From: an uncultured Clostridium sp.
GTDB lineage: Bacteria; Bacillota; Clostridia; Clostridiales; Clostridiaceae
DNA length: 64,000 nucleotides
Direction: 5' to 3'
Assembly (NCBI GenBank): GCA_902785295.1
Contig: CACZYK010000001.1
Span: forward strand, 23,466 to 87,465
The translations under genes were made by a program, and so were the position numbers. Below the pieces are notes generated by a model that saw only the letters and a list, made by a program, of their open reading frames with translations, was not told the origin of the DNA and did no database searches. Positions 1 through 29,730 of this stretch are shown piece by piece (the stretch's first letter is position 1; every line of letters begins with the position of its first letter).

Positions 1-215
1 TATTCTTTTATTTCATCATGAATATTATTAGAAAATGAAATATGATCATATTTTTTACATAAAATATAACTTTTTATTGTCGGAACAAAATATTCATTAT
101 ATGCATCAAAAAATGTGTTATTTTGTCGTGCTATATTTTGATTTTTTACATCTTTTTGCTTGTTTTCAGATACTTCGCACATCAAAGCTATACACTTATT
201 TAATTTTTCTCTCAT
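1..215 (-). CDS. Partial gene, unknown product (N-terminus only)
   Basis: An open frame runs from an ATG at 215 to the window edge (71 codons) without a stop. A strong GGAGGA ribosome site (revcomp at 221-226) sits just upstream, and the gap to the previous gene of the helicase operon is a few bases, so it is most likely the seventh gene of that operon. The protein begins MREKLNKCIALMCEVSENK and is hydrophilic. I do not recognise a family. Its position after the large ATPase suggests a further component of the same system, but that is inference from context only. Confidence 0.7.
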   Translation of the reverse strand, partial: MREKLNKCIALMCEVSENKQKDVKNQNIARQNNTFFDAYNEYFVPTIKSYILCKKYDHISFSNNIHDEIKE

Positions 216-216
216 A

Positions 217-3200
217 TTAATCCTCCATTAATTTTATTAATTTATCAAATTCCAACTTGTTTTCATCAAATCTCGGATCTACTGAATTACCTCCTATATT
301 TAACCATTTGCCACTTCTAATTAATTCTTGTTTTGTATTTGTCATTTCATTATAAATACTTTCTACATCATCATATACTTTTTTAAGTAATGATATAAAT
401 GACTTAATATTCTTCATTGGATTTTTAGAATAATAAATCATCTTTTCAAGAGAACTTAAACCATCCATTTCTTTACACAATATTGATAATGACTTAATAA
501 TATTAGAACTATTTTCTTTAAATTTCATTACCTCATTAGTTTTTAAACCAATATTTATACCATTTCTCTCTGTCTGATTGTAAAAATCTTTAATTTCATT
601 TAGTAACTCTTTAATATCGTCTATTTCAAATTCATCGCCTTCATGAAAATCAAAATAATCAAGTAATTCAAGATATAACTTTTTTCCCTCAGCAGATTCT
701 GCAATTAAGACCTTATCAATACGTGAAAGTATTTTTTTTAAATACTCTTTTGGCATATTACGTGCTTTAATTTTATCATCGGCTATTTCATCAATATTAA
801 TTGAAAAATTGTCTTTCTTCAAGTCTTTAAAAATTGAACTTAATTCACTATAGTTAATAATTTTTTTTGTTACATTCTTATTATTTCCCTGTATAAGATT
901 ATAATACTTTTGTATAATATCTATATTTTCTTTATCATTAAAATAAATAATATTATCCATAAATTCAATCCACTCTTTCGAATGCCCTTCCAAATTTTTC
1001 TTTTGACGCTCATTATTATTTTTTAAAAATACTTCTGGCTTTATATCTGATAATTTATTTATTTGATAATCTCCATTAAGAATACCTCTATATACTTCTG
1101 CAATCATTGCACAACGAATATAATTAGGATACTTTGCATTAGTATCATATGCACGAACAATTTCAATAAATTTATTTTTATTTTTTTCTAACCAACATGT
1201 AATAAATCTTAAGCTTGAAGCAGAGTTTTCAAAATTCCATGACATCTTCCCTAAATGAATCCACTTTCCAAATGCAAGCAATAATTGATATGTATCCTCT
1301 GAATCGTCAAGTAAAACTAATCCCTTATCAATTCCTCTGTCTTGTCTTTCAATGGAAATCAAAGTATAACTCGACTTTTCAACCATTTGTACTGAAATAA
1401 GAGGTACACCTTCTCTTTGCCAAGGAATTGTCGCAAAAATAAATTTACAAATTTCATCTCTAACTTTATAAGCTTTTGTAAAACTCTTTTTTTCATAATA
1501 CCAATCAGATAATATTCTAGTAAAATCATCAAATTCTTTATTTGTTTTAACAACAGGTTTCTCATCTTTTCTTGTTTCTGGTTTTTGGACTATAACATTA
1601 GTATTATTTTCTTCATTTGATATTGGTACATCTATATCATCAATTGAAACATTCAATATTTTTTCAGCAAAAATTTTCAACCCAAACTCTTTAAAAACTT
1701 TTAAACTAACTGCTCCAATATATCCTTTATTATTGGTATCAAGTGTTCCGTCCCCCCAAAAGCTAATTATTGCAAGCACTCTATCTCTATAACTATTTTT
1801 TTCAGAATCATCAAGTTTCATATTTGCAATCATACTTTTTATTCTTGATTCTACATCATACTTCAATATGGATGCTTTTGATGTTAAAAATTTAGGGAAA
1901 TTATCCTTATCTTTCAAAATATTATCTATGGCTGGTTCAATTATTTTTCTTAAAATATATCTTGGTGTTTTATGCACTACTATTCTATCATATAAATTTA
2001 CAATTGCTTTCTTGGTAAATGGATATAAGCTAAGCTTCTTTCCTTCATAATTATAATATTCCCAATTACTTATTTCTGTGTCTTCATGAACTGGATACTC
2101 TACTTCTAAAGCTCCATTTTTATACCATTTATTAATATCAGTTTCAGGGATAGATATTACATTTAAGTATTTCGCAACAAATTGTATTAAATCATCAGTA
2201 TTATTTCCAATAGAACCATCTTCTATTGTTATCATTGTTGTAATACGATCAATATAATTAGATCTGAATTCTTTAAAATACTCTGATGTTGTTCCAATAA
2301 CAGATACCAAACGGCACATTTTATCAACTTCATTAATACCAGTATGTTCTACAATTAACGCATCTAATAAATCTCTATTAATCCCTGTACAAGAAGTAAT
2401 ATCCTCAATAAGTAATATGAGATTCTTTCCTTGCTTATATAATTCTTGTCTTATTTCCTTAAAAATCTGTTGAAAGTCACCTGGTTCTAATCCAGCACAC
2501 GCTTTTATTACAGACTCTACTTTTGAATTCATATATTTTGCAAGAATTTTTGGATTACATTCATCATCTAAGAAAGTTCCATCTGCTTCAGGTAAAAGCT
2601 TATTTGCTATTTTTACTGCCTTTTTACTTGCATTATTTTTTAACTTTGTATTAAAATCATAATCCATAGTAAAATCCTCTTCATTAAATAAAGCTAACAC
2701 ATCTTCATCTGTCTCTAAATTACTATCAACTATTTTACTATATATTCTTTCAATTGGACCACCACTCATAAGCATTCTTTCTTCAAATTCTGAGCTTGAT
2801 AAAAGTTCTCTAAAATTTTTTCTATCACTCGCTGAAAGAATTGTTTCATCATCATCTGCAATTTCAACCAAAAACTTATGATATATTTCATACTTAAATT
2901 TTTGCTCACTTACATTTTGATTAGCCCTAACTAATCTTTCATATATATCCTTATTTTTAATATTCTTTACTTCATCTATATTTAAAAATTGTTTAATTGT
3001 ACCTTTAAGAGTGTTATCACTTCTCCTTATCATAAGAATAACATCTTTACTTTCTTCTAATGTGTCTAATTTAGCATTAATCCATCTTATAAAATGAGAT
3101 TTACCTGAACCACTTGAACCATCTACTACTACTAACTGATGCTTATTATATAATTCTAAATTATTAAAATATCTGAAAAAAATTTCTTCCTCTGACATAT

Positions 3201-3348
3201 ATTCAGATAATGGTGTTCCTGTTAAATCATTAGTTACTTTTATCTTTTTAAATGGTACATGTGTAGATAAAAAATCTGCTTGAGTACTATTAATAGAATC
3301 CACATTCAATACATCTTTAAACCTAGTAAAAGCTATTTGTCTATTCAT
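217..3348 (-). CDS. Large P-loop ATPase, DpdH-like (tentative)
   Basis: A 1043-residue protein with a Walker A motif GSSGSGKS at about residues 77-84, followed by HFIRW, and a likely Walker B (LILLIED) near residues 310-316. The rest is mostly charged helical sequence without recognised catalytic motifs, and there are no membrane segments. Its start overlaps the stop of the preceding gene (ATGA), so the two are translationally coupled. Size, an N-terminal ATPase preceded by a short region, and position directly after RecQ-type and DpdG-size genes match DpdH of the 7-deazaguanine DNA restriction module. The assignment rests on architecture and gene order, not on alignment. It could instead be an ATPase of an unrelated multi-gene defence system. 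The internal open frames in this stretch are shadows. Confidence 0.6.
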   Translation of the reverse strand: MNRQIAFTRFKDVLNVDSINSTQADFLSTHVPFKKIKVTNDLTGTPLSEYMSEEEIFFRYFNNLELYNKHQLVVVDGSSGSGKSHFIRWINAKLDTLEESKDVILMIRRSDNTLKGTIKQFLNIDEVKNIKNKDIYERLVRANQNVSEQKFKYEIYHKFLVEIADDDETILSASDRKNFRELLSSSEFEERMLMSGGPIERIYSKIVDSNLETDEDVLALFNEEDFTMDYDFNTKLKNNASKKAVKIANKLLPEADGTFLDDECNPKILAKYMNSKVESVIKACAGLEPGDFQQIFKEIRQELYKQGKNLILLIEDITSCTGINRDLLDALIVEHTGINEVDKMCRLVSVIGTTSEYFKEFRSNYIDRITTMITIEDGSIGNNTDDLIQFVAKYLNVISIPETDINKWYKNGALEVEYPVHEDTEISNWEYYNYEGKKLSLYPFTKKAIVNLYDRIVVHKTPRYILRKIIEPAIDNILKDKDNFPKFLTSKASILKYDVESRIKSMIANMKLDDSEKNSYRDRVLAIISFWGDGTLDTNNKGYIGAVSLKVFKEFGLKIFAEKILNVSIDDIDVPISNEENNTNVIVQKPETRKDEKPVVKTNKEFDDFTRILSDWYYEKKSFTKAYKVRDEICKFIFATIPWQREGVPLISVQMVEKSSYTLISIERQDRGIDKGLVLLDDSEDTYQLLLAFGKWIHLGKMSWNFENSASSLRFITCWLEKNKNKFIEIVRAYDTNAKYPNYIRCAMIAEVYRGILNGDYQINKLSDIKPEVFLKNNNERQKKNLEGHSKEWIEFMDNIIYFNDKENIDIIQKYYNLIQGNNKNVTKKIINYSELSSIFKDLKKDNFSINIDEIADDKIKARNMPKEYLKKILSRIDKVLIAESAEGKKLYLELLDYFDFHEGDEFEIDDIKELLNEIKDFYNQTERNGINIGLKTNEVMKFKENSSNIIKSLSILCKEMDGLSSLEKMIYYSKNPMKNIKSFISLLKKVYDDVESIYNEMTNTKQELIRSGKWLNIGGNSVDPRFDENKLEFDKLIKLMED

Positions 3349-4157
3349 CTTCTTTTTACTCCTCTATATATTATATGTGTAAACTTTTCTGTAAACTCAT
3401 GTGTTTCATCCTTAAATAAATTCCAAGTTTCTTTACTATCCAAATTTTTCTTAATAGTAATTTCATTTTTATCATGCATTTGTCTAAGGGCAATTGACAT
3501 AGCTAGATTAAAAGTTTTACTATCTCTTGTTTCTTTTAATGCAACCGAAGCAAAACTATATATTTCATCTAAAAATTCTTTAACAGAATATTCTTTATTT
3601 TTTTCTAAATTTGACAATTCACAGAAATCTTGTAATGCTACATGCATATTAGGCAAATAATACATAGCATTACCTTCTTGAATATATCCAAAACCCAAAA
3701 ATGAAATCCAAAAGCGCATACCCAAAATCATTTGTTCATTTACTAATAAAATTTTAGACTTATCTTGTATTTCTCGCCTTATATTTACATCAGTCAAAGT
3801 TTTATACTTCAACCACTCATCATTTGATTCTAAATAACAATTAGCAATTTTATAAAAGTATGTATCTGTATTATTAAATACAATTGAATTACAATATTTG
3901 CGGAAGGAATTCATATCTTTTAATATCTTTTTATCTCCAATAAATTTCAAAATATCATTTTCTTTAGATATAAGTTGTAATTCTTTAACACAAACATCTC
4001 TTATGCTCGAATAATATGTAGAACTAGATGGATTAATCTCTGTTGGTTCCATTCTCTCTTTTGCTAACTTATCATTTAAATCCTCTTTTGATACCATTTG
4101 ACAAAGTTCAAATACCCTCTCTGGTATAGGTTCAGTCTTTATATTATTATCAAACAT
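3345..4157 (-). CDS. Small accessory protein, DpdG-like by position
   Basis: A 270-residue soluble protein between the RecQ-type helicase and the large ATPase. No catalytic motif or membrane segment is visible; the sequence is helical and moderately hydrophobic in the middle (about residues 140-170). Start at ATG 4157 with a GAGTGAAG-type ribosome site; its end overlaps the next gene by 4 bases. DpdG in Dpd clusters is a protein of similar size lying between DpdF and DpdH, which is the only reason for the comparison. Function unknown. A partner or adaptor of the large ATPase is a reasonable guess because of the overlapping translation. Confidence 0.55.
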   Translation of the reverse strand: MFDNNIKTEPIPERVFELCQMVSKEDLNDKLAKERMEPTEINPSSSTYYSSIRDVCVKELQLISKENDILKFIGDKKILKDMNSFRKYCNSIVFNNTDTYFYKIANCYLESNDEWLKYKTLTDVNIRREIQDKSKILLVNEQMILGMRFWISFLGFGYIQEGNAMYYLPNMHVALQDFCELSNLEKNKEYSVKEFLDEIYSFASVALKETRDSKTFNLAMSIALRQMHDKNEITIKKNLDSKETWNLFKDETHEFTEKFTHIIYRGVKRR

Positions 4158-4184
4158 ATCTTCACTTCACTCCTCATTATTATC

Positions 4185-6617
4185 CTATTCTTGTTTGCAA
4201 GGTCCATTTATTATCTCTGATAAATTTTTCTTTTTGAAAGACAAATAATAATCTTCCTTAGAAAATAAAAGAAATCTCATATCATGTTTTTTTATAATAC
4301 TATCTATTATATTAAGTATATTCTTTTGCATCATATTATCATCAGGAATATAAACAATAATACTACCAGATATAAAATATTTATTATTTGTGATTAGCTC
4401 CAAAAATTCAAAATAATTGCAATACATCAATTTATAGCTACTACTTATCTGTTTAGATTCAATTGCTCTTATCATTTCATTATCTGCAACTAGAACATCT
4501 GCTCCTTTTTCAAGTATGCCCAAAATAGAATCAATACAACTAGAACTAATTGTTAACATACACTTTGCACCATATGAATAAGCATCAATCTCATCATTAA
4601 TTTTTGAAAATGGTTTATTAATATCAGATTTTAAAGTTTTATTATCCTCAAAATTTATAATATCAGTATGTCTATTACATCCTGCACAATACTCATAGGT
4701 TTTTCTATATACTTTTGTAAAAACATCAGACCAACAAATTTTACCAACATTATTTAGATTTTTCTTCATTAGTAAAAACTCATATTCTTTTTTCTTCCAT
4801 TCTTTATCTCTGATAGAATCAATCATGGCTTTTGTTTTATCATTATTTGATAATAACTGCCTTTCCAAGATTGTAATAAAAAATATATACTTATTACTTA
4901 CATATTGAATATCATCAATTGTAATTAATCCATTTCTGCGTAAAAACAGAATAACATATACATTCCAAACTATATCTTGGTTATTAATATAATCAACAAA
5001 TTCTTCATTTGCATTGTAATCTGGCTTTACATATGTATCAATCAAATACTTAGAATTATAAAGTGGTTTTGTAGCACTACTATGTAACATACTAAACCAT
5101 CTTCCAATTAATTTATCTGTAGTAACAACTTTACTTACAAATGAAAAAGCTGAATCAACATCTTCTTCTGTATAAATCATTGTACTAAGACTAGGCAAAC
5201 CATCTCTTCCACCTCTTCCTGCTTCTTGATAATACTTGTTTAGATTTTCAGGCACATATATATGCAAAACCGTTCTTACATTTTTTTTATCAACCCCAAC
5301 TCCAAAAGCACAAGTTGCTATCATTAAATCAAACTGTCCCTCTTTCCATAAGCTTATTATTTCTTGTCTTTGGTCATTTTTTGTTTCACCAGTAAAAGTA
5401 TATATATTGTTGTATCCATTTTCACAAAGTTTCTCTTTTAAATTCTCTGCTTCATTAGGTGATTTAACATATACAATCATTGGTCTAGGTAATAAATCAA
5501 TTGCCTTTAAAACTCTATTCATTTTTTCGCCATAATTATCACATTTAATAATATCAAATCTTGTTTCATGTCTTAATTTTTCACATCGAATTTCTATCCA
5601 TCGTTCTTCTGTGGAATAAAACATCTTCAATTGTCGAATAACTTCATCACTATATGTAGCTGAAAGCAAAAAAGTTCTTAACTCATCATTTTTCAACATA
5701 AAATTTTTTCGCATGGCATCTAAACACTGAAAATCAATTCTAAAAGAAGACCCCCAATCAATGATTATATGTGCCTCATCTATAATAATATTTTTTAAAT
5801 ACTTTTCATCATTAGATTTTTCTATTTTTTCCCTCAAAAATTGATTTTTTATCAAACTCTCTGGAGAAACAAATAACAATCGTGCCTTCTTTTGCTCAAG
5901 GCTACAAAAAAATTTATCCAAATTACACCCACTATGATAATAAAATATTTCTTCATCAGTATTTGAATTTATAATATCTTTTGAATTACTAAATTGGTCT
6001 AGCATCAACGAAATAGTAGGTACTATTACTAATGTCAAACCCTCTTTTTGATATGCAACTGTTTGAGTAATTAAACTTTTTCCACCACCAGTTGTCATAG
6101 ATACTAAGCATGAATAACCAACTGGTGTACGTAATGCACCCATTACAGCTAACTTCTGCTCATTGCTTTTAAAATATTTAAAACTAGTAAGTTTCTGTAT
6201 ATATGAATTGGTTATTAAATTATGTATCTTGTCTTCATCTTCCTCTTTAATATTTTGCATATAAAGTTGATTAACAAGATATCTATTGGAAAATTCAGGC
6301 AAAACTAATTTTGCCCTTACTTTTCCTGTATTCATATCAATATATAATCCAAAATCATGAAATCTTTCAGATGGATAATATTTAGGCATTACTAATTCTT
6401 TCTTTACCAGTAAAAGATAATTTCTTAGAGCACATTCAAAATCAACTTTAGATGCTTCATTGTTTAATTGTTTATTCCAAATTTTTATTAATGTTATTGC
6501 TGTATTAAATATATATTTCTCTTTTGTTGTCCTAAATGTAAATCTTTCATTCAAAATAGAATTATCTCCATTTTTAATAGCACATTCAACTAATCTATGA
6601 ATTTCATTATAAACCAT
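4185..6617 (-). CDS. RecQ-type superfamily 2 helicase, DpdF-like
   Basis: An 810-residue ATP-dependent helicase. Visible motifs: I TTGGGKS (about 175-181), II DEAH (280-283), III LLSATY (about 317-322), V ATCAFGVGVD (about 434-443) and VI QEAGRGGRDG (464-473), the last being typical of RecQ. A CAGC cysteine pair in the C-terminal third may bind zinc. About 150 residues precede the helicase core and about 330 follow it, so it is longer than housekeeping RecQ in a different way (no obvious HRDC domain). Start at 6617 has GAGG eight bases upstream and overlaps the SNF2 gene by 11 bases. Order SNF2 then RecQ matches dpdE-dpdF. Confidence 0.8.
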   Translation of the reverse strand: MVYNEIHRLVECAIKNGDNSILNERFTFRTTKEKYIFNTAITLIKIWNKQLNNEASKVDFECALRNYLLLVKKELVMPKYYPSERFHDFGLYIDMNTGKVRAKLVLPEFSNRYLVNQLYMQNIKEEDEDKIHNLITNSYIQKLTSFKYFKSNEQKLAVMGALRTPVGYSCLVSMTTGGGKSLITQTVAYQKEGLTLVIVPTISLMLDQFSNSKDIINSNTDEEIFYYHSGCNLDKFFCSLEQKKARLLFVSPESLIKNQFLREKIEKSNDEKYLKNIIIDEAHIIIDWGSSFRIDFQCLDAMRKNFMLKNDELRTFLLSATYSDEVIRQLKMFYSTEERWIEIRCEKLRHETRFDIIKCDNYGEKMNRVLKAIDLLPRPMIVYVKSPNEAENLKEKLCENGYNNIYTFTGETKNDQRQEIISLWKEGQFDLMIATCAFGVGVDKKNVRTVLHIYVPENLNKYYQEAGRGGRDGLPSLSTMIYTEEDVDSAFSFVSKVVTTDKLIGRWFSMLHSSATKPLYNSKYLIDTYVKPDYNANEEFVDYINNQDIVWNVYVILFLRRNGLITIDDIQYVSNKYIFFITILERQLLSNNDKTKAMIDSIRDKEWKKKEYEFLLMKKNLNNVGKICWSDVFTKVYRKTYEYCAGCNRHTDIINFEDNKTLKSDINKPFSKINDEIDAYSYGAKCMLTISSSCIDSILGILEKGADVLVADNEMIRAIESKQISSSYKLMYCNYFEFLELITNNKYFISGSIIVYIPDDNMMQKNILNIIDSIIKKHDMRFLLFSKEDYYLSFKKKNLSEIINGPCKQE

Positions 6618-9600
6618 CTATCATCCTCACATAACAAACTGAATCTAATATCATTCTTGGAGTAGAAAAACATTGTAAGAGCAAATCGTTAACATCTTCA
6701 TTTACTACCTTTTCTCCGGTTAAATAAAATTTACCTATTGCTTTTTGTGCTCCACTATTTTTTAATAACTCCACCTTCAATAAACTTAATTGTTTTTTTA
6801 ATTTTTTATTAATCTTTACTTTTACTTTTTCTAACGCTCTCTGGTATCCATACTCAACTTCTTGTATCCACTTTTCTTGTGGATACATATTTATAAACGA
6901 ATTTATATTTGGATGCAAACCAGATCTCGAACCTAAATGTTTAAACTTTTTTCTGTCAACATTCTCTGAGGTCATTAAATAATTAAATGTATTTATTACC
7001 TCTTCTTCAGAAACATTATCATTATTAGAAATAGAAATTGCACATTGAAGTTGCTCAATTTGCATAAATCCACGATATTTGTCTATAGTATGTAATGATA
7101 ATCCTTTTTCTAACAATAATGTTTCATTTGGATATAAAGCCCATGTAAACACAAAGCCTGTCCAGTCTATGTTGGCCTTACAAGCGAAAGCTGCACAAGT
7201 TCCCTTATATGAACCTAATGCATTGTTAACAATACTATCAAAAATTGCATCTCCTGGTGCAAAAAAATGAATATAATCATTATCAATACCTATCTTCCTA
7301 TCAAATGTTCCCTCAACATAATTTAAATCATATTTTGATATTTTTTCATCATTCATACAACGCATCTTATTTTGTAATTGATTTATTTTATTATTAATCA
7401 CTAAATTTATATCTGGTGGTACAAATAATGAATTGTATGCCGATTTTAATGAAAAAGAGTTTTCATCAAACCTTATAATTGATTTTTCTTCACTTTTTCC
7501 ATGAAAGCCAGATAATGCTGACCATCGCATCATAGAATCTGCAAATAATTGTTTTTCATTTGAAACATACATTTCTCTTGTATTATCCATAATCTTATTT
7601 ATTGCTTGATATTTATATTCTGCAACATCAAAATATCTTTCGCGAGTAATTATCTGTTTCAACTCACCTATTTCTTTTTTCACTTCATTTATTATACCAA
7701 TTAGTCCATACTTAAAGTCATTACAAACTGCTTTAATTATTTTTTCGTCCATATCATTCATGATAATTTCAAGCCCACTTTGAGATTTCGTAAATATTCC
7801 TATACCTTCATTCCAGAATTTGAACAAATCTTCTTCAATAGATAATTTTGCATAACAAACTACTGAAATAACTGGTTTATTTTTTTCTCTACCAATACGA
7901 TCTAATCTACCTATCCTCTGTTCAATTTCATTGGCATTCCACGGAATATCAATATGAACAACAACATCAGCATTTTGAAAATTTCTTCCTTCACCTCCTG
8001 ATTCATCAGATAATAATATCCAATAATTGCTGTCTGTTTCAAATCTATATGCCCCTAATTCTCTTTCATCAGATTCCATATATTTTGAGAAAAATGCACA
8101 GTGTTCTTTTCCAAAATATCTTTCAAATACATCTTTATATAACAAAAATGATTCATCAAAATTAGTAAAAACTAATACTTTTTTTCCATATAATTCTTGA
8201 TCAATATAATCAATAATATTATTCATTCTTGATTCATAACCTTCAGGATCTTCCATAAAAGTATGCATTTTTAGAATATTTTCCTTTTCTTCATTTTTCC
8301 AATTAGTAGAAAGTTCAAATAATTCTTCAGGCGCATCATCTATAAATCCATTATTTAATATTGTATCAAATGCTACTGCAGAACTAAAAAATGCTGAAAC
8401 TAATCTTTTATATTTTATCAAATATGTACTATAGTCGAGATTTTTATTTTCTATCCAACTAGCCAATTCTCTATAGACATTGTACTCTGTATTATTAAAA
8501 TTAGTCTGCATATCATATGAAATTTCTTTTATTTCTCGAATATTATAGTCTTCTTCTTTTTCACAACCACGTCTATTTCTGATAATGGATTTTTCAAATT
8601 GATAGTTCTCACACACATAGGCTAAAGCACCTTGTATTTTCTCAATACCAAAATCTTCAGATTCATAATTTATATTTTCGTATAAATCTTTAAAAATATT
8701 ATCATTAATAAGTTTTTGAATTTTTTCTAAACTATCAATTATATCTTCAAAAGCATCCTTTGTATCTTCACTATGTTCATTTTCACTTTCATCAATTTCT
8801 TCTAAATATGAATCAAAATTTTCTAGTGCATCATGTACCCTTCTAACAATATCTCCTTGTAAATTCATCAAAAATTCAAATTTTTCATCTGATATTCTAG
8901 TGTATTTCATGGGTTGAATAAGTTGTAACAGTTTTTTATATTCATCTTTTCTTCTTTGAATAGGTGTTGCACTAAGCATAAGAATATTATCAGTTTTTTT
9001 ACTTAATTCCAATAATAATTTATATTTTTCATTATCTTGTAAATATTTATGTACTTCATCAGCAATCAAAAAATCGTAATGTCCTTCAAGAAAATATTCA
9101 TTAAATTTATTCATACTAATCAAGCATATCTTATTTCCATTAACATCTAATCCTTCAAAAATTTTAAATTTATATGCAAGTTCTATTCTCCATTGTTCCA
9201 CTAAGGAATCTGGCACAATTATTATTATATTTGAATTATGATTATCCTTTAAATAAACTTTTAAGACTGCTGAAGCTTCTATCGTTTTCCCCATTCCAAC
9301 TTCATCGGCAATCATATTTCTACATATGCCATCTTGAAGACATCTAATTATTGTTCTTAACTGATGTGTTTTTAAATATATTTTACATCCTGCAACTTCA
9401 CTAAATCCATAAAGTGAGTTATTAATAATATGCATTGTTCTACTTACAATGCTTCTACCAAAAAACCACATAGGATTCTGAAATTCATAATTTTTTAATT
9501 GTTCTAATGGGCATACACATCCATCATTATATGAACACTCTAACATTGATTCAGATACATATTCAATTAAATCTTCATCGGATTGTATGTAATAGTAATA

Positions 9601-9882
9601 CATTCCATTTTCTTTATTTAATTTAAGTGCTTTTACAATATATCTTGTTTTTTTATATTTAACAATAGCACCAATACGAATCTTAATATGCGATATTTTA
9701 TTAACATTATACTTTTTATTTTTCGGCTTTGGATAAAACTTTCCTACTCCATTAACATCAAAAAATATAATATCAACTAACTCTGAAAATTCATCTATTT
9801 CTTTTATTTTTCCAATTGCATAATCACGTGAAAATTTTTCATCATCTATTGCACATCGCACAAACATACCATTTTTTATCAA
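6607..9882 (-). CDS. SNF2-family helicase/translocase, DpdE-like
   Basis: A 1091-residue SNF2-type protein. Motif I DEVGMGKT (about 193-200), motif II DEVH (275-278), LSATP (motif III), and the C-terminal RecA lobe with SGGEGRNFQ and EQRIGRLDRIGR (about 655-705) are all present, so the ATPase should be active. A two-part N-terminal region of about 170 residues looks like small beta-barrel (SH3-like) domains. The C-terminal 380 residues are unassigned. The proposed start is TTG at 9882, served by GGGGATGA overlapping the end of the preceding gene; an ATG at 9867 is the alternative but lacks a ribosome site. Place and type match DpdE. Confidence 0.8.
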   Translation of the reverse strand: MIKNGMFVRCAIDDEKFSRDYAIGKIKEIDEFSELVDIIFFDVNGVGKFYPKPKNKKYNVNKISHIKIRIGAIVKYKKTRYIVKALKLNKENGMYYYYIQSDEDLIEYVSESMLECSYNDGCVCPLEQLKNYEFQNPMWFFGRSIVSRTMHIINNSLYGFSEVAGCKIYLKTHQLRTIIRCLQDGICRNMIADEVGMGKTIEASAVLKVYLKDNHNSNIIIIVPDSLVEQWRIELAYKFKIFEGLDVNGNKICLISMNKFNEYFLEGHYDFLIADEVHKYLQDNEKYKLLLELSKKTDNILMLSATPIQRRKDEYKKLLQLIQPMKYTRISDEKFEFLMNLQGDIVRRVHDALENFDSYLEEIDESENEHSEDTKDAFEDIIDSLEKIQKLINDNIFKDLYENINYESEDFGIEKIQGALAYVCENYQFEKSIIRNRRGCEKEEDYNIREIKEISYDMQTNFNNTEYNVYRELASWIENKNLDYSTYLIKYKRLVSAFFSSAVAFDTILNNGFIDDAPEELFELSTNWKNEEKENILKMHTFMEDPEGYESRMNNIIDYIDQELYGKKVLVFTNFDESFLLYKDVFERYFGKEHCAFFSKYMESDERELGAYRFETDSNYWILLSDESGGEGRNFQNADVVVHIDIPWNANEIEQRIGRLDRIGREKNKPVISVVCYAKLSIEEDLFKFWNEGIGIFTKSQSGLEIIMNDMDEKIIKAVCNDFKYGLIGIINEVKKEIGELKQIITRERYFDVAEYKYQAINKIMDNTREMYVSNEKQLFADSMMRWSALSGFHGKSEEKSIIRFDENSFSLKSAYNSLFVPPDINLVINNKINQLQNKMRCMNDEKISKYDLNYVEGTFDRKIGIDNDYIHFFAPGDAIFDSIVNNALGSYKGTCAAFACKANIDWTGFVFTWALYPNETLLLEKGLSLHTIDKYRGFMQIEQLQCAISISNNDNVSEEEVINTFNYLMTSENVDRKKFKHLGSRSGLHPNINSFINMYPQEKWIQEVEYGYQRALEKVKVKINKKLKKQLSLLKVELLKNSGAQKAIGKFYLTGEKVVNEDVNDLLLQCFSTPRMILDSVCYVRMIDGL

Positions 9883-9884
9883 AA

Positions 9885-12521
9885 TTAATCATCCCCTATG
9901 TTAGCACCATACTCAAGACAAATATCCTTACTTGCACAATACATACAATGCTTTCCATGAATACAGTAAAACTTTTTATCAATAATTGCTTTTTTTAATT
10001 CTTCATCACTAACTTCTTCCATAATGTTTTTTAAAGGAGTATTTAAAAAACATTCCCTTAATCTCATTTCTTCTTTCATATCAACTGATATACTTGGAAA
10101 GAGATTTTTATTTTTACTATATTTTTTCATACGTTGAATAAAACTACATATATCTTTATAAACTGATGAAATAATCTGTGTTTTTTCCAATTCATCAGAA
10201 ATACGAAATTGTGTTTCAATAATTTCATACTGCTCTTGTATTACCTTTTTTATTATTTCATCACTATATGATTTGCCATCAAGTTCTTTTTTGCTCCTAT
10301 TAGTAGTAAGGATTTTTAAATATGTATGAATTAAAAATCTGTCTCTAAATACTGTTTTTCCTTGCCCTATTCCCTCTAGTGCAAATCTATATGGGCATAA
10401 CTTCAATTTTTTCCTATCTTCTTCTGAAATATACTTAATCACTTCATCTATCTCTTTCTCATTAGATTCAACAACTAAATTTTCCAAGTAATTATTTGTA
10501 TTAAATGAAGAGTATTTTCTAACTTTTGCTCCAAGTAGAGTAAACATATAGAACAAATCATTATCCTTATTATCTTCTCTTCTAACATAACTCAATTTAC
10601 ATCTTACTCTATTAAACTCTAGTCCATAAAGTAGTGCATATCTTTTAAAATTTCGATACTCCATTTTTGATTTTAAAAAAACTTGATACTTCCATTCCAA
10701 TGCTTGATAACTATATTCAAAAAACTTAATATCTAAAGGCCATGGAAGCCTTTCATCTTTACTAGAGCAAATATCTTTATCGCTCAAGCAACAAAAATGA
10801 TAGCAAACCTTTTTTGGATCCTGTTTTGCACTTCTAAGAATATCCCCATCAATCTGGTCAAAATTTTTCACAATCCAATGAGCACCTCTTACAGTATTTT
10901 CATCTTGACTTAAGTAATAACTCATTGTCTGCTTTAGAGCATTAAATGTTCCTGTTTCAGGAATATCCGATTCTTCTAATCTCTCAAGTAATCTACGAAT
11001 CACACTATGCATTTCATCATCTAAATCATTCAAATCACTAACTTTTGAAATAATAAATTTTCTAATTCTTTTATAGAACCTTCTGAAATTATCTGTACCA
11101 TTATCAAAATCATCGAAGAAAGATTTAACAATTTTTTCAAGTTCATTTAGAGCATTCTTCAATTCCAAAAGTAACTCTTTATCTACCATAAAATATCCAA
11201 CTTTCTCTTTATCATTATGCTTTTTATTTGAATTTTTTATTAATTGATTTAATTTCGCAATAATTCCCAATATTGTATTTTCTTTTTTTACATATGGCTC
11301 AATCATATTGAATGTACTAACCAGCTGACCAGGAATATTTTCAGAAATTATGCCAGAATTTAAGCATTCTTTTATATCTGAAAAATTGTCAACTTTCACA
11401 CACCTTTTCTCAGAATCCCACATATTTGTAGTGGATATAAAAAAATGACCAATTGGATAATCCAAGAAATGTCTTTCTTCAAATTGTTCTGGAAAATATG
11501 CCCTCAATATATCATTAACTTTTCCTGATGCTGAGTATAATTGTTCTTCCATAAAAAAAAGTGGTGTTTTTACATTATCATTTTTTTCACTAGCACTCTT
11601 AGCTTTATCAAATAACATTGCTACATAATTTGCAAATTCAGTTGTATTATTGAATTCGATAATTTCTAAATCATTCAATACTTTATTCTTTTCTATGAAC
11701 TCACCATTTGATAAATGACCTATATAATCAGCTAGTACATTAGACTTATATGAGTTTATGAGTAATGGCATTGGTACAAATTGATTTATGCTATAATTAT
11801 TAATTGGCACATCAAATATTGAATAAATATTCATCCATGTCTCATAAACAACTGAATACTGATTCTGATAATTAAACAAAAGAACTATATCTTTAAATTT
11901 ACTAATATCTTCAATGGCACACAATATCGCAGGCGTGAATTGATGTATTCCATGAATTACAATCTGATTTCTGTTTATTGCATTTAAATCAACATCTTTT
12001 TTATGAAACATCAATGCATTATCAATAGATTGTTCCACTACTTCCTTAGAATTTACTCTTTCAAAAGAAAATGTAGAGTTTACATTTGAATCAATAATTT
12101 TGTACAAATCCACAAGATATTGTTGAGAAATATTTAATTCTTTTTTACTCATCAACTTAGAGTTTATACCTAATTCTTTAAACATTCTAATACATGCAAC
12201 AATAGATTTTGTGTTAAACAATAAAGAACGTTTTACATTTTCCAAAATATTAGTTTCAAAATTTAATTCGTTTATTGCGTTATCCACTTCCATAATTTGT
12301 CGTACATTTGTATTTATATCTTCCCAGTTTTTATACATGCAATTTACAAGTGTCTTTACTGTTGCTGTTGCTTGTCTTTTTTTCAATAAAGGATATATTT
12401 GATTCATACCATTTACCATAGTCTGAGAAACACAGAAATGAGCACTATCTTTTATTTCATTCCAAAAAGGCTCACAATCTATTTCATATGGATTTGAATA
12501 TGTATATATTTTAATTCCCAT
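9885..12521 (-). CDS. AddB-like protein with Fe-S cysteine staple but no visible nuclease motif
   Basis: An 878-residue protein. Near residue 180-230 a segment reading IHGIHQFTPAILCAIEDIS then KDIVLLFNY resembles the AddB/RecC-type helicase-like core (G-FTPQE region). The C-terminus carries CPYRF at about residue 709 and C-x2-C-x5-C at about 859-868, the four-cysteine iron-sulfur staple of AddB, AdnB and Cas4 nuclease domains. Only about 150 residues separate them, and the GxxDR and D-x-K nuclease motifs are not seen. Walker A is also absent, as in RecC-like subunits. Start chosen at ATG 12521, nine bases after GGAGG; the upstream ATG would overlap the previous gene more. It is immediately downstream of the NERD-UvrD gene, so an AddAB-like heterodimer is inferred. 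Confidence 0.65.
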   Translation of the reverse strand: MGIKIYTYSNPYEIDCEPFWNEIKDSAHFCVSQTMVNGMNQIYPLLKKRQATATVKTLVNCMYKNWEDINTNVRQIMEVDNAINELNFETNILENVKRSLLFNTKSIVACIRMFKELGINSKLMSKKELNISQQYLVDLYKIIDSNVNSTFSFERVNSKEVVEQSIDNALMFHKKDVDLNAINRNQIVIHGIHQFTPAILCAIEDISKFKDIVLLFNYQNQYSVVYETWMNIYSIFDVPINNYSINQFVPMPLLINSYKSNVLADYIGHLSNGEFIEKNKVLNDLEIIEFNNTTEFANYVAMLFDKAKSASEKNDNVKTPLFFMEEQLYSASGKVNDILRAYFPEQFEERHFLDYPIGHFFISTTNMWDSEKRCVKVDNFSDIKECLNSGIISENIPGQLVSTFNMIEPYVKKENTILGIIAKLNQLIKNSNKKHNDKEKVGYFMVDKELLLELKNALNELEKIVKSFFDDFDNGTDNFRRFYKRIRKFIISKVSDLNDLDDEMHSVIRRLLERLEESDIPETGTFNALKQTMSYYLSQDENTVRGAHWIVKNFDQIDGDILRSAKQDPKKVCYHFCCLSDKDICSSKDERLPWPLDIKFFEYSYQALEWKYQVFLKSKMEYRNFKRYALLYGLEFNRVRCKLSYVRREDNKDNDLFYMFTLLGAKVRKYSSFNTNNYLENLVVESNEKEIDEVIKYISEEDRKKLKLCPYRFALEGIGQGKTVFRDRFLIHTYLKILTTNRSKKELDGKSYSDEIIKKVIQEQYEIIETQFRISDELEKTQIISSVYKDICSFIQRMKKYSKNKNLFPSISVDMKEEMRLRECFLNTPLKNIMEEVSDEELKKAIIDKKFYCIHGKHCMYCASKDICLEYGANIGDD

Positions 12522-12522
12522 A

Positions 12523-15500
12523 CTATATTTCCTCCAATAATTTTCCCCACGTATTTCCATTAGAATCTGTTTTATTAAACCAGTAAAACTTATTTATTGT
12601 CCTAGTTAATGCCACATATAATATACGTGCTTCTTCCATCTCAATCTCACCTAATTCATCATCCTCATAGAAATATTCATTTGCCATAAATTCTCCATCA
12701 ACACTAACACAATATCCAACTTTTCCATCAACATATGTCACATCCAAACCATTTCTATGCATCATATCAATCTTGTCAGTAGTTATAGGCATAATAACCA
12801 TATCATACTCCAAACCCTTTGACTTATGAACAGTGGTACATACTATGCGTACATAATCACCACCATCTGTTACAGATCTTGAATTTCTTTCTGAGCCCAT
12901 ATTAATCAAGATATTTAATGACTCATTAATTGAATCCAATGTCAAATAACTATATTTGCTTTCTTTTGATAAATCTTCAAATACTAAATCATAATTTGTT
13001 CGATAATGTATTTGCTTTGCTTCATCCATAGAATATGTTTTCCATGGCTTAGTTGCATCATAAATTTTTCGCAACACCATCAATACTGGTTTACTTTGTA
13101 TTTCATAAACCAATTCACTCCAATTTACTCCTAGTGTTTTTTGATAAAATTTATCTAAACATCCAATAAGATAATTCATCTTTTCCTGCTCTGTCATTTT
13201 TACCAACTTTTCCACAGGAAACTTTATATTTACATTATTTGATAAAAGTAAATTAAATAAATATACTGGATTTCTTGAATTTGATAAGGCAGATGTTAAC
13301 TTACATAAATCTATACTTGATTGAAGTCTATATAAATCTCCATTTGAATCACTCTCAATTATAATATCATTCTGTTCTTTAGCTTTTCTAAGAATAGTAG
13401 CTATCTGATAATTTGTTCTTACAAGAACTGCAACAGTTTTTTCAGCCTGCGATAATTTTGAAAAATCACTCCTTGCTTCTATTTCAGTTTTTCTATTCTT
13501 TATCACTTCAAATAATTTTTTATATATACCATCATCTTTTTCGTCTTCTTTTGTATAAGAAAACACATTTACTAATTCATTTTTATCCAAAAGTAAGTTT
13601 TCATTAACTCCAATCAATCTATCTGATGGTTCTTTATAAGGAATAAGATTCTTATTTCCCATTGAGTTAAATAACACTGCAAAATCTTCTAACAATCTCT
13701 TATCAGTTCTATAATTAATATTTAAAGTATATTCTTTCCATGTTTCTGCCTGACATCCCATCTTTTTAAATGAGTCCATAGTTGCTCCTCTAAATCTATA
13801 AATACTTTGTTTTAAATCTCCAACTATAAAAAAATTAAACCCTAATTTCTTTTGCATTTCTAAAAATGCAGATATCTGTGAATCATCAACATCCTGAAAT
13901 TCATCAATGAATATATATTTGTATTGATACAAATTAGTGTTAAATGACTCATCACTTACACATTTATTTAAGTAAAGCATATATTCCACAAGACTAACTG
14001 AATTATTCTCATATAAATAATCTGAATACGCTCTCTCAGTCTTTATAATGACCTCTTCAATAATCTCATTCATGTATGGCATTTGACTTGCTGGTGCTCC
14101 AAATACATTCTCTGTGGTCTCTTTTATGTCATATCCTTTATTATATAACATATCTGCAAATTTCAATAATAGTTTTCTAAAGTCATATATGTTTCCCGGT
14201 ATGTTTCCAAAGAACATAGGCTCTTCATTATTTTTCTTTTGCAAATACTCATTAAAGTACATATCAAAGATTTTCTGCTTTTGATAATTTCCACTTACTG
14301 TTGAAAAATCAACACCTATTCCTAAAGATAATGATGTATCTTTCATTACTAAATTTGAAAAACTATGAATGGTTGATATTCGCATATTTTCTATTTCAGC
14401 AATCATTTCAAGATACTTTTTATTTCGTGTAAGAATAAAATAATTCATAAATGCTTGCTTTAACCTACTTTTCATATTGGTAGCAGCTTCAGTCGTAAAT
14501 GTTAACATTGCAATTTCATTTTTCACATCCAATATATTTGACTTACTTGACTTATGACAAATAAAAGAAATTCTTGAAATCATAGAATATGTTTTTCCAG
14601 TGCCTGCACCTGCTTTAACAACAATATTTTTATCAATAGGAGCATGTTCTACCATATACTGTTGCAAATTAAACTTTGATTTTTTTGCTATAAACTCCAC
14701 TATTTCTAGTGTTTTTTTATCTAATACTCCATTCTTAATAATCCTATTTTCACTTACAAAATCACTTAATTCTTCAATAAAGTATGCCTCAAAATTAAAA
14801 AATTCAATATATCCATCTTTGCTCTTCAATGTATTTTTTTGTTGTGAGTTGAGAATAAAATTTCTGCCTTTCAGAAAAATTCCTTCAGCGTTAAACTTTT
14901 TTAATATATTTTGAGAAATCTGTTCCACTTCATCTTTATTACTCAAAAATATGGTCTGCTTTACTCCTTTAAAATAATAATTTACTATTTCATCTATATC
15001 TGAAATGGTAATATCATGTACATATATCCTTAATTCAGAATAAGGCAAAACATCATTATTTTCTTCCTCAATATAATTATTTGCCTCAAAATGCAACCTA
15101 CACGTTTTATATATATTTCCAACCATTTTGTCATAAATAGGCTGATTTGTTTTTTGATATACTCTGGCTATTTTCTTCACAAATTTTGTTGGATTTTCAA
15201 TGTCTTCTTGAAACAAAGTAAATTCTGGTTCTGAAACAATATTTAGTCCTCTATTATTATATTCATATTCTGACATAAATGGATAACACACCATATCCAT
15301 TACAAATGGATTTATACTATATTTATTGTTATATATATTAACAAGAGCAAACCTGTAACTTCTTGCTTGTTTCTTGGGTGAACTAACTGGTTCCGAATAA
15401 AGTGTTGTTTGAATTGTATCAGGATTATTTACTTTTATAATATCCAATGCCTTCCATCCTTTTACTTCTATTATAAGTATTCCTATATGTTCCATAATCA

Positions 15501-15639
15501 AACAAAAGTCAAACTGCTTACCATTTACTTCCCTATTGTAATAACATATTATATCATCAGGTAAATTTGACTCTATACACTCATAAACTTTCATTTCACC
15601 CTTATAAGTCGCATCCTTTTTATCCATCATTTTTGCCAT
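12523..15639 (-). CDS. NERD nuclease-UvrD/AddA-like superfamily 1 helicase
   Basis: A 1038-residue protein. Residues about 10-130 form a NERD domain with the PD-(D/E)XK signature D45 and E58-V-K60 (IEVKGW). The UvrD helicase core follows: motif Ia-I GAGTGKT (about 344-350), II IDEFQD, III GDLKQSIYRFRGA, V TVHKSKGLE and VI YVALTRT, all intact. An N-terminal NERD nuclease replaces the C-terminal nuclease usual in AddA. It is the first gene of the operon. Start set at ATG 15639, eight bases after GAGG; an ATG two codons upstream is too close to that site. The next gene is an AddB-like partner, with 1 base between stop and start. Confidence 0.85.
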   Translation of the reverse strand: MAKMMDKKDATYKGEMKVYECIESNLPDDIICYYNREVNGKQFDFCLIMEHIGILIIEVKGWKALDIIKVNNPDTIQTTLYSEPVSSPKKQARSYRFALVNIYNNKYSINPFVMDMVCYPFMSEYEYNNRGLNIVSEPEFTLFQEDIENPTKFVKKIARVYQKTNQPIYDKMVGNIYKTCRLHFEANNYIEEENNDVLPYSELRIYVHDITISDIDEIVNYYFKGVKQTIFLSNKDEVEQISQNILKKFNAEGIFLKGRNFILNSQQKNTLKSKDGYIEFFNFEAYFIEELSDFVSENRIIKNGVLDKKTLEIVEFIAKKSKFNLQQYMVEHAPIDKNIVVKAGAGTGKTYSMISRISFICHKSSKSNILDVKNEIAMLTFTTEAATNMKSRLKQAFMNYFILTRNKKYLEMIAEIENMRISTIHSFSNLVMKDTSLSLGIGVDFSTVSGNYQKQKIFDMYFNEYLQKKNNEEPMFFGNIPGNIYDFRKLLLKFADMLYNKGYDIKETTENVFGAPASQMPYMNEIIEEVIIKTERAYSDYLYENNSVSLVEYMLYLNKCVSDESFNTNLYQYKYIFIDEFQDVDDSQISAFLEMQKKLGFNFFIVGDLKQSIYRFRGATMDSFKKMGCQAETWKEYTLNINYRTDKRLLEDFAVLFNSMGNKNLIPYKEPSDRLIGVNENLLLDKNELVNVFSYTKEDEKDDGIYKKLFEVIKNRKTEIEARSDFSKLSQAEKTVAVLVRTNYQIATILRKAKEQNDIIIESDSNGDLYRLQSSIDLCKLTSALSNSRNPVYLFNLLLSNNVNIKFPVEKLVKMTEQEKMNYLIGCLDKFYQKTLGVNWSELVYEIQSKPVLMVLRKIYDATKPWKTYSMDEAKQIHYRTNYDLVFEDLSKESKYSYLTLDSINESLNILINMGSERNSRSVTDGGDYVRIVCTTVHKSKGLEYDMVIMPITTDKIDMMHRNGLDVTYVDGKVGYCVSVDGEFMANEYFYEDDELGEIEMEEARILYVALTRTINKFYWFNKTDSNGNTWGKLLEEI

Positions 15640-15831
15640 GACCATTACCTCTACTTTTTCTTTAAACTATTGTAAAACAATCTAAATTTTCATAACTTTG
15701 AATATATTCCATAGTTCTACTTTTTTTGAATTTCTCAATTATCTAAAAAATAAATATTTAGATTAATCACTCTACTTATCTATTAAAAGTCCTATAAAAA
15801 TTTGAGATATACTGTCTATGTTTATAACTTT

Positions 15832-15860
15832 ATTATCTTGCATTTTTTGTAATAGGTCAA
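15832..15860 (-). promoter_or_regulatory. Sigma-A promoter of the helicase operon
   Basis: On the minus strand TTGACC (15855-15860) and GATAAT (15832-15837) are separated by exactly 17 bases. Transcription would start near 15825 and leave a leader of about 185 nt before the NERD-UvrD gene. No terminator is visible in that leader. Confidence 0.7.
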
Positions 15861-16596: not shown

Positions 16597-17514
16597 CTAT
16601 GCTGGTTTACTTTCTAGATATAGCACTTGTGAATCCACAAATTCAAAATTGCATTCACATAATTTATTAAAATTTTCTATGGTTTCTTTTATTTGTTTTT
16701 GAGTAAATATTTTTTCATCACATAAGTAAAGTGCTCTGTAAATGTCTTCATTTAGGATATTGTCTTTTATAAGATTTGTTATTTTCTTAACTTCTTCCTT
16801 TTCTTTTTCTGAAAATTTTATACCTATTTCATTTATCTTTTTTATATATAATTTGTTTATTTGAATATAGCTCATATATAAAGCTATAATGTATTCAATA
16901 TTTAAACTTATTTGATTTTCTATATTTCTTTTAACTAAATCCTCAATATCTAACTTTATATTTGCTATACATTCTCTTAGTGATACATAATCATTTCTTT
17001 CTATGGGCTTATTATTAATACCTTGCTGTTCAAAACTTTCTATTAAAATTGTTGCTTTTGCAATTTCTTTTCTTGTTCTTAAAACAAGTTTTTGTTTTTC
17101 ATTGTCTAAAAGTTTATTTACTCCTATTTGTATCTCGTCTAACTTTTTATTCATGCTATTTAATTTTTTATTTATAATAACAAAGCTTGCCACTGAGACA
17201 CAAATATTCAAGCCTGATGCTAATAAACTTGCTGTGCTTACTAAAGACTGTAAACTTTTTACATTACTTAAACATTCTAAGTTTTTAAGCATATTACTAA
17301 ACCTTACATCTAGTTTGGACATTTCATTTATAACTTCTTTATATGAAACATCTTCTTTTACTATCTCTAAATGACGTATTATTTGTCCATTATAAGAACC
17401 ACTATTAATTCTTCTAATAGTTCCACCATAAACAGTAGCCTTTTTTTCTTTAATAAGTTGTATGCACTCTTCAGGTATTTTTCTATAAACCTCTTTATTA
17501 ATTATTTCTTCCAT
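16597..17514 (-). CDS. Unknown protein with central hydrophobic segment and coiled coil
   Basis: A 305-residue protein. Residues about 95-115 form a hydrophobic segment (SLLASGLNICVSVASFVII) followed directly by a lysine/asparagine-rich coiled coil (NKKLNSMNKKLDEI) and then an amphipathic helical region, an arrangement seen in membrane-associated or pore-forming proteins. No family recognised. Start chosen at ATG 17514, six bases after GGAG, rather than the upstream GTG. It follows the preceding gene with a 2-base gap, so the pair is co-translated. A two-gene toxin/immunity or abortive-infection pair is possible but unproven. Confidence 0.6.
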   Translation of the reverse strand: MEEIINKEVYRKIPEECIQLIKEKKATVYGGTIRRINSGSYNGQIIRHLEIVKEDVSYKEVINEMSKLDVRFSNMLKNLECLSNVKSLQSLVSTASLLASGLNICVSVASFVIINKKLNSMNKKLDEIQIGVNKLLDNEKQKLVLRTRKEIAKATILIESFEQQGINNKPIERNDYVSLRECIANIKLDIEDLVKRNIENQISLNIEYIIALYMSYIQINKLYIKKINEIGIKFSEKEKEEVKKITNLIKDNILNEDIYRALYLCDEKIFTQKQIKETIENFNKLCECNFEFVDSQVLYLESKPA

Positions 17515-17516
17515 CC

Positions 17517-18092
17517 TTATCTCCACTCCAATTTATATTCATTTAAATATAAGATTAAAGCTATCTCAAATAATTTTATATCTTTATCTTTGTTTATTAA
17601 TCTTGATGAAAAAGGTTCACATTTTTTAAATATTTTAACTATGTCTTTTATATAAACCTCTGAATTTTTTATTAAGTCATTTCTTAAATTAGTTACTTTT
17701 TTTAAATCAACATTATTTAAAATCAATATTAATTTAGAGGCAACACTTATACAAAATTCTTTTGAGATATTGTCATCCTTAAAATCTCCTTTAGATTTTC
17801 CAATTAAGTTTTTAAGGGATTCTGCTTTAGACCTATTTATTTTCCTTTCATTTTTATATTGTATTAGCACATATAAACTATTTTCTATTTTTTCAATAAA
17901 AAACTTATTTAATTTATAGTCTAATCTAACAGAATCATCTTTAACCCCAAAATATCCTTTAATAAAATTAATAATAAAATCATGTCTTCTTATATTATAT
18001 TTTTCTTTGTATCCTGCTATTTTAGCAACTTTTAAAAAATCATCTCGATTAAGATTTTTTATCATAATATGTACATTATATGCATTACTCAT
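17517..18092 (-). CDS. Unknown 191-residue protein, partner of the coiled-coil protein
   Basis: A basic, helical protein beginning MSNAYNVHIMIKNLNRDDF. The N-terminal 60 residues look like a small effector-associated or death-like helical domain (NLNRDDFLKVAKIAGY), and the rest is helical with lysine-rich stretches. No catalytic motif. Start at ATG 18092, five bases after GGAAGTGG; a GTG five codons upstream is an alternative. Only 2 bases separate it from the next gene. N-terminal adaptor-type domains of this sort occur in bacterial conflict systems, but I cannot name the family. Confidence 0.55.
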   Translation of the reverse strand: MSNAYNVHIMIKNLNRDDFLKVAKIAGYKEKYNIRRHDFIINFIKGYFGVKDDSVRLDYKLNKFFIEKIENSLYVLIQYKNERKINRSKAESLKNLIGKSKGDFKDDNISKEFCISVASKLILILNNVDLKKVTNLRNDLIKNSEVYIKDIVKIFKKCEPFSSRLINKDKDIKLFEIALILYLNEYKLEWR

Positions 18093-18264
18093 TAAAACCA
18101 CTTCCACATTATGTATTTACATAATTTATGTTATTTTATCTTTGTATTATAATTTTATCATAATTGTATTTTTTATACAATATTCTTCATGTTTTTATAT
18201 TTTTTCTTATTTATTACATTTATATATCTATTTAAAACTTTTTCATTTTAATTTTATATAAAAT

Positions 18265-29653: not shown

Positions 29654-29667
29654 TTTCTTTTCACCTG

Positions 29668-29730
29668 CTTTCATTAATAATTTAAGTATATATTTTCTTT
29701 ATAATTTTATATTATTTAAGTAAAAACTTT
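29668..29730. repeat. Upstream repeat of DUF1703-type genes, copy 3
   Basis: Matches 25078-25140 and 23236-23300 over about 60 bp; lies immediately upstream of the intact gene's start. Confidence 0.6.

Follow-up and report, generated by a model that had tools for sequence, protein, structure and literature searches.

Restriction genes of the 7-deazaguanine type adjoin phosphorothioate modification genes in an uncultured Clostridium

Gene content at the locus

We analyzed a 64,000-nucleotide stretch (the window) of contig CACZYK010000001.1 from an uncultured Clostridium sp., which starts within a minus-strand operon of seven closely packed genes. Their products comprise a NERD-UvrD protein, an AddB-like protein, homologues of DpdE, DpdF, DpdG and DpdH, and a protein in the position of DpdI. 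The last gene runs across into L003, a flank from the same contig, in which position p equals window position p minus 15466. In transcription order, the genes are as follows.

12523-15645, minus strand: NERD-UvrD, 1040 aa, first gene of the operon (Pfam NERD 4.7e-9, and UvrD)
9885-12560, minus strand: AddB-like protein, 891 aa (fold match, AlphaFold2 and Foldseek)
6607-9882, minus strand: DpdE homologue, SNF2-type translocase, 1091 aa (NCBIfam DpdE 1.8e-96, 324 bits, cut-off 500)
4185-6617, minus strand: DpdF homologue, RecQ-type helicase, 810 aa (NCBIfam DpdF 2.2e-130, 437 bits, cut-off 550)
3345-4157, minus strand: DpdG homologue, predicted winged-helix protein, 270 aa (NCBIfam DpdG 2.4e-4, below cut-off)
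217-3348, minus strand: DpdH homologue, large P-loop ATPase, 1043 aa (NCBIfam DpdH 8.1e-87, 293 bits, cut-off 450)
1-215, minus strand: 5' part of the DpdI-position gene, 218 aa (whole gene L003:15025-15681; assigned by position and a weak tblastn match)

A sequence-only reading of the window had proposed an undescribed defence system of six large genes behind one promoter, with a seventh gene leaving the window. All six long minus-strand open reading frames are present, with junctions of -38, +2, -11, +27 and -4 bp in transcription order and +1 bp to the seventh, and the domain content that it listed (NERD and UvrD, SNF2, RecQ-type helicase, P-loop ATPase) is borne out. The promoter candidate, TTGACC-17-GATAAT at 15860-15832, does exist and has 10 of 12 consensus matches, but it does not rise above chance, as the 1.2-kb region holds 12 promoter-like sites and its shuffles average 11.5. 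Of the Dpd proteins, only DpdG had been suspected; four of the six genes are DpdE, DpdF, DpdG and DpdH homologues, and PADLOC gives the same four genes these names. As all four fall under the NCBIfam cut-offs (E, F and H are clear, G stands at 2.4e-4), routine annotation would probably leave them unnamed. The 218-aa product of the seventh gene has no NCBIfam match; its weak tblastn match (48 bits) is to a Paenibacillus gene (L016) that has dpdH on one side and dpdJ on the other. A DpdF query against viral contigs matched one stretch, which holds no relative. No named system in PADLOC or NCBIfam covers the whole set, as had been supposed.

Extending the contig to the left, a step that the sequence-only reading had called for, revealed a complete dndB-C-D-E-A operon that faces the Dpd-type operon, 95 bp separating the two operon ends.

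L003:8505-9584, plus strand: DndB (above cut-off)
L003:9587-11197, plus strand: DndC (above cut-off)
L003:11194-13353, plus strand: DndD (above cut-off)
L003:13356-13745, plus strand: DndE (below cut-off; operon position)
L003:13742-14929, plus strand: DndA-type desulfurase (below cut-off; operon position)
L003:7110-8291, minus strand: HNH endonuclease gene, beyond dndB and divergent from it

Restriction genes of the 7-deazaguanine type thus adjoin phosphorothioate (PT) modification genes, and the contig encodes every component of the Dnd phosphorothioation module (DndB, C, D and E plus the DndA/IscS desulfurase). This operon outside the window moves the reading from an undescribed helicase system to the probable restriction half of a PT restriction-modification (R-M) system; what persists of the earlier proposal is a coherent, conserved gene set with defence-type genes nearby, for which we infer a defence function.

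The window's genome (G000, a draft, 96% complete) has no match to DpdA (NF041059), DpdB (NF041060) or DndH (TIGR03237), DndF and DndG not having been searched for there. Because DpdA and DpdB were sought and not found, the system is not Dpd. Two tblastn queries each for DpdJ and DpdK gave no match at E 1e-4 in the window or L003, the part of the genome to which this search was confined; no YprA-family helicase was thus found there as a DpdJ homologue, a separate DrmA query not having been run on these sequences.

Recurrence, descent and module exchange

A seven-protein DpdH alignment (A1) was scanned against one genome per species, and the best 80 of 215 relatives formed the sample. In this sample, the gene set of the window is complete at 23 loci, and another 5 are cut-off members of that type. 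DISARM-type DrmA-DrmB is present at 2 loci; DpdA, DpdJ, DpdK or the large ATPase typical of alphaproteobacterial Dpd clusters is present at 38; and the remaining 12 have the core with none of DpdA/J/K, the large ATPase, Dnd, AddB or DrmAB in reach. The window and its 23 relatives make up the 24 complete loci. All 24 contain NERD-UvrD (split in L036), the AddB-like gene (short in L029 and L036), DpdE-F-G-H and the DpdI-position gene, and the recurrence of the same order in the 23 other loci places the gene set beyond chance. The co-occurrence for which the sequence-only reading had asked is thus found, and by record titles the carriers span Clostridia and some other groups, with many Lachnospiraceae and other Firmicutes. 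Culturable carriers include Papillibacter cinnamivorans DSM 12816 (L081) and Sedimentibacter hydroxybenzoicus DSM 7310 (L030). Motor motif residues of DpdE and DpdH, and the TGGGKS, DEAH and RecQ motif residues of DpdF, are kept in at least 23 of the 24 rows, the threshold used for motif conservation. DpdJ and DpdK have no tblastn match over 60 bits in the 24 loci.

Linkage to dnd is equally regular. DndC, DndD (split in L036), DndA and a DndE-type or DndE-size gene are linked in 24/24 complete loci, and DndB is seen in all except L026, L028, L029, L032 and L038. The dnd genes are co-directional and downstream of the DpdI-position gene in 17 loci, separated from it by 14-132 bp in 16 of these and by 403 bp in L048; they lie directly upstream of NERD-UvrD in two (L028, L032), convergent in three (the window, L043 and L050), and convergent beyond a dndFGH operon in two (L046, L047). 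An HNH gene is found in 13/24 loci, namely, the window and 12 of its 23 relatives: in 11 of the latter it directly follows dndA with gaps of 0-23 bp, and in L028 it follows the DpdI-position gene. Residues D261, H262, N276, N285 and K288 are invariant in 13/13 HNH proteins.

Forty-nine whole genomes were then compared: those of the window, the 23 complete relatives, the 5 cut-off members, the 2 DISARM-type loci and 18 Dpd-type loci. DndC is above cut-off in 28 (24/24 complete, the cut-off member L037 and 3/18 Dpd-type), and DpdA is above cut-off in 16 (15/18 Dpd-type, plus L034). In L034 the match to DpdA covers only profile positions 45-250, contains a stop and lies on a separate contig, and intact DpdA was found in none of the 24 genomes with complete loci. 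DndH is above cut-off in four genomes (L043, L046, L047 and L048), all among the 24.

In a DpdH tree of 85 proteins, a single 29-row group (support, 94) contains the PT-linked rows together with the cut-off members L025 and L031 and the long-branched DISARM-type L057; its neighbors are Dpd-type rows of Bacillota and next Chloroflexota. The PT label clusters on the tree (0/500 shuffles as low). The PT-linked module appears to be derived from a Dpd system, although a quick method, long branches and a midpoint root make this a reading of the tree and not a proof.

A clustering discrepancy between the two modules is more telling. In the DpdH tree, the window and L023 are sisters, whereas for DndC the window groups with L028 and L032 (100/100) and L023 groups with the main group. 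Likewise, the window and L023 share 61.8-80.0% protein identity for the seven restriction-side proteins versus 30.0-45.6% for the five Dnd proteins, while with L028 the opposite holds for DndC, E and A (51.7, 44.4 and 48.6%). At least once, the whole Dnd module has been swapped while the seven restriction-side genes stayed together and the PT link was kept; of the arguments for a functional tie, we give this one the most weight. There is also movement of the array as a whole: Hornefia and Faecalicoccus records, from different families, have 92% DNA identity over 21 kb, implying transfer between bacteria as one unit. The module is rare: at E 1e-5, a scan of 398 genomes of the phylum found the DpdH family in the window only.

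Several loci carry additions or variations. Two small genes lie between addB-like and dpdE in a deeper PT-locus branch (L043:1919-3451, L046:2050-3530 and L047:2050-3530), the L043 pair having no Pfam or NCBIfam match. Islands combining DndBCDEA, DndFGH and the Dpd core with NERD-UvrD/AddB comprise L046, L047, L043 and L048, together with L147, L149 and L154-L159. Two Selenomonadaceae records, L057:1-21677 and L042:2-9888, have the Dpd core followed by DISARM-type DrmA and DrmB; in L057, DpdE is in two open reading frames and the left edge holds a cytosine-5 methylase gene, and in L042, DpdH is in three and the contig begins in DpdG. Neither genome has DndC above cut-off or a DpdA match. In Faecalicoccus, a DncV-like nucleotidyltransferase and a ThiF protein, a CBASS-like arrangement, immediately follow the array (L044:19941-22637).

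The NERD-UvrD and AddB-like pair and the flanking genes

By profile, the nearest solved structure to NERD-UvrD is AddA (3u44_A, 1.3e-42). A Pfam domain scan shows that the protein stops after UvrD_C, with no C-terminal RecB-type nuclease; at its other end, NERD residues D46 and E60-V61-K62 are invariant, as is the UvrD Walker A motif, in all 23 full-length proteins. The name AddB-like, given in the sequence-only reading, is upheld by fold and not by sequence family: there is no sequence match to AddB and no credible match to a Pfam, NCBIfam or PADLOC family. For an AlphaFold2 model with pLDDT 67, the best Foldseek matches are chain B of the AddAB entries 4cei (3.4e-13), 3u44 and 4ceh, followed by RecC of 7mr1. 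TM is about 0.46 against AddAB chain B, and the rmsd of about 14 A points to a different packing of the domains or to a poor model of it. As in the iron-sulfur site of AddB, there are four conserved Cys near the C terminus, of which the truncated rows L029 and L036 lack three. Between these Cys, the alignment of relatives has no conserved Asp/Glu/Lys set of the kind that forms a PD-(D/E)XK site, and the nuclease site looks lost. As the NERD site is invariant and the AddB-like nuclease residues are not conserved, the pair looks like an AddAB whose nuclease has shifted to an N-terminal NERD domain.

The AddB-like protein was also tried as a survey probe and set aside as too fast-evolving, since it found the window only in 291 genomes of the class. 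In plasmids it found one Geobacillus relative without Dpd or Dnd nearby. There, L014:15981-22954 encodes two UvrD helicases and an AddB-like protein (21% over 44% of the query), with no Dpd or Dnd among the listed genes, and is perhaps another AddAB-derived system.

Just upstream of the operon, at window 16597-18107, a JukB-like protein (PADLOC 7.8e-19) overlaps a 196-aa gene, a possible Juk-type anti-phage pair. To the left of dnd, L003:2-7034 encodes a sacsin/TmtA-like ATPase, a DrmD-like SNF2 helicase, a WYL regulator and an HSDR_N_2 protein, probably another defence cluster. Farther into the window, three large proteins that are similar by eye (23500-24966, 25235-26893 and 28091-29674) are probably paralogous ATPases.

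Proposed function and relation to known systems

Gene content and linkage together suggest that this is, probably, a PT-based R-M system whose restriction side combines a Dpd-type core with an AddAB-like helicase-nuclease. DndA supplies sulfur, DndC-D-E place PT at a sequence motif and DndB regulates; here they would mark such a motif in host DNA. DpdE-F-G-H-I would form a surveillance core in which DpdE (SNF2) and DpdF (RecQ) translocate along DNA and remodel it, DpdG probably reads the DNA and DpdH may serve as an ATPase switch. Unmarked DNA met by the core would have its destruction licensed to NERD-UvrD/AddB, a putative AddAB-like helicase-nuclease in which NERD is the sole recognizable intact nuclease, and HNH, where present, may cut first. 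The analysis itself establishes gene content, homology, linkage, motif conservation and module exchange; PT production, the sensing of PT absence, DNA degradation and the part given to each protein are what we infer.

Several observations weigh against this proposal. Common descent and transfer connect the 24 loci, which hence are not independent events. DndFGH is co-present in L043, L046, L047 and L048, so the module is no simple substitute for it there. That DndH was not found in the other 20 of the 24 carriers, the window's genome included, counts in favor of the proposal, the Pbe/CxC type and SspE not having been searched for; with many of the genomes being metagenome-assembled (MAGs), absences are soft. 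One genome in the PT clade, that of L025, is without a DndC match, its locus being cut off and the genome a MAG. Among 391 genomes of the class, three others are Dnd-positive, and the module is absent from each, the search for it yielding no more than 32 matched residues at 3.8e-4 in one of them. DndH is present in one, and next to dnd all three carry an additional DndD-like gene; Dnd thus has several partners, of which the module is one. Finally, the 12 core-only loci, mostly cyanobacterial, have no Dpd, Dnd or AddB genes within their flanks, which is as far as was searched, and the core may work alone in them. (These are L070, L071, L072, L084-L088, L092, L094, L097 and L102; L086 and some others are short contigs.)

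Those 12 loci, the DndFGH genes in four carriers, and the defence-type genes on either side of the operon would fit a stand-alone defence, in which phage replication or DNA ends would trigger the seven genes, with no mark being read, while Dnd travels along as a defence-island neighbor. We consider this unlikely: Dnd is linked in 24/24 complete loci, where the genes mostly form a single co-directional array and the gaps are short, the module became associated with a different Dnd module instead of losing Dnd, and the homologous core is linked elsewhere to DpdA/TGT genes. SspE exemplifies defence that is PT-activated rather than PT-inhibited, and a module of this kind, armed by host PT marks and then attacking invading DNA, seems about equally improbable here. 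Repair or maintenance of PT-modified DNA, with RecQ, SNF2 and AddAB-like enzymes processing breaks from sulfur chemistry, is the least probable alternative, for although AddAB and RecQ are classical repair machines and the resemblance to AddA and AddB is clear, the AddB-like protein lacks a conserved nuclease site and NERD sits on its partner instead, DpdE-H belong to a restriction context, and the module is rare and transferred between families.

If the PT R-M proposal is right, one restriction core is common to two unrelated DNA marks, which bears on self/non-self discrimination. It is conceivable, though we would rate it at somewhat under even chances, that DpdE-F-G-H-I is a mark-agnostic core joined to unrelated self-marks: 7-deazaguanine, PT and perhaps 5-methylcytosine (Selenomonas L057). 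The core itself could then not read mark chemistry; it would sense a shared property, such as target motif occupancy, or use an exchangeable adaptor, and the effector pairs (DpdJ/K, DrmA/B, AddAB-like) would be swapped too.

Many bacteria with PT-DNA are without restriction genes of a known kind, and an epigenetic role has been suggested on that ground (PMC11931770); for a group of PT bacteria, many of them Lachnospiraceae or other Firmicutes by record title, the gene set is a concrete candidate restriction partner. Islands of dpd have been defined via dpdAB genes (PMC11888242), and another survey covers systems around YprA helicases such as DpdJ (PMC12458937). With proteins below cut-off, no DpdA or DpdJ and mostly no DndH, the set would probably be missed by surveys anchored on those genes. 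A Dnd-neighborhood survey lists HKD, HNH, NERD, URI, HEPN and PIN nucleases, so that the occurrence of NERD or HNH genes next to Dnd has been published before (PMC10853773); its main text has 0 occurrences each of "dpd," "recq" and "addb." No description of the combination was found in the open-access PMC literature, although supplements may list the neighborhood. We regard it as a newly recognized variant, probably of PT-based R-M, with a Dpd-type restriction core.

Among described systems, BRIGADE, ARMADA and DISARM share Dpd-like or SNF2-type components but are centered on a YprA-family helicase of the DpdJ/DrmA type (PMC12458937). CxC-DndE/PbeABCD is likewise an alternative partner of the Dnd modification module; it has an HKD nuclease-SF2 helicase fusion and an ABC-ATPase with a DndE-type partner, whereas no protein of the window's operon is so built (PMC10853773). 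From AddAB/RecBCD, the pair has an AddA-nearest NERD-UvrD, a model nearest AddB and the four C-terminal Cys, but its nuclease is N-terminal on the AddA-like subunit and of NERD type, and the AddB-like subunit is without conserved nuclease residues. With Dnd (DndABCDE plus DndFGH), the locus shares the complete DndBCDE and A modification module; unlike it, most carriers (20/24) have no DndH found, and the restriction-side proteins of the window match Dpd families, not DndFGH. Dpd (dpdA-K) is closest on the restriction side, with homologues of DpdE-F-G-H, all below the family cut-offs in the window, and a DpdI-position gene in the same order; in Dpd this core acts with 7-deazaguanine, and DpdJ/DpdK stand in place of the AddAB-like pair. 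The genome here has no DpdA or DpdB match and the locus no DpdJ/DpdK; it has instead NERD-UvrD with the AddB-like protein, and PT genes where Dpd has those for deazaguanine.

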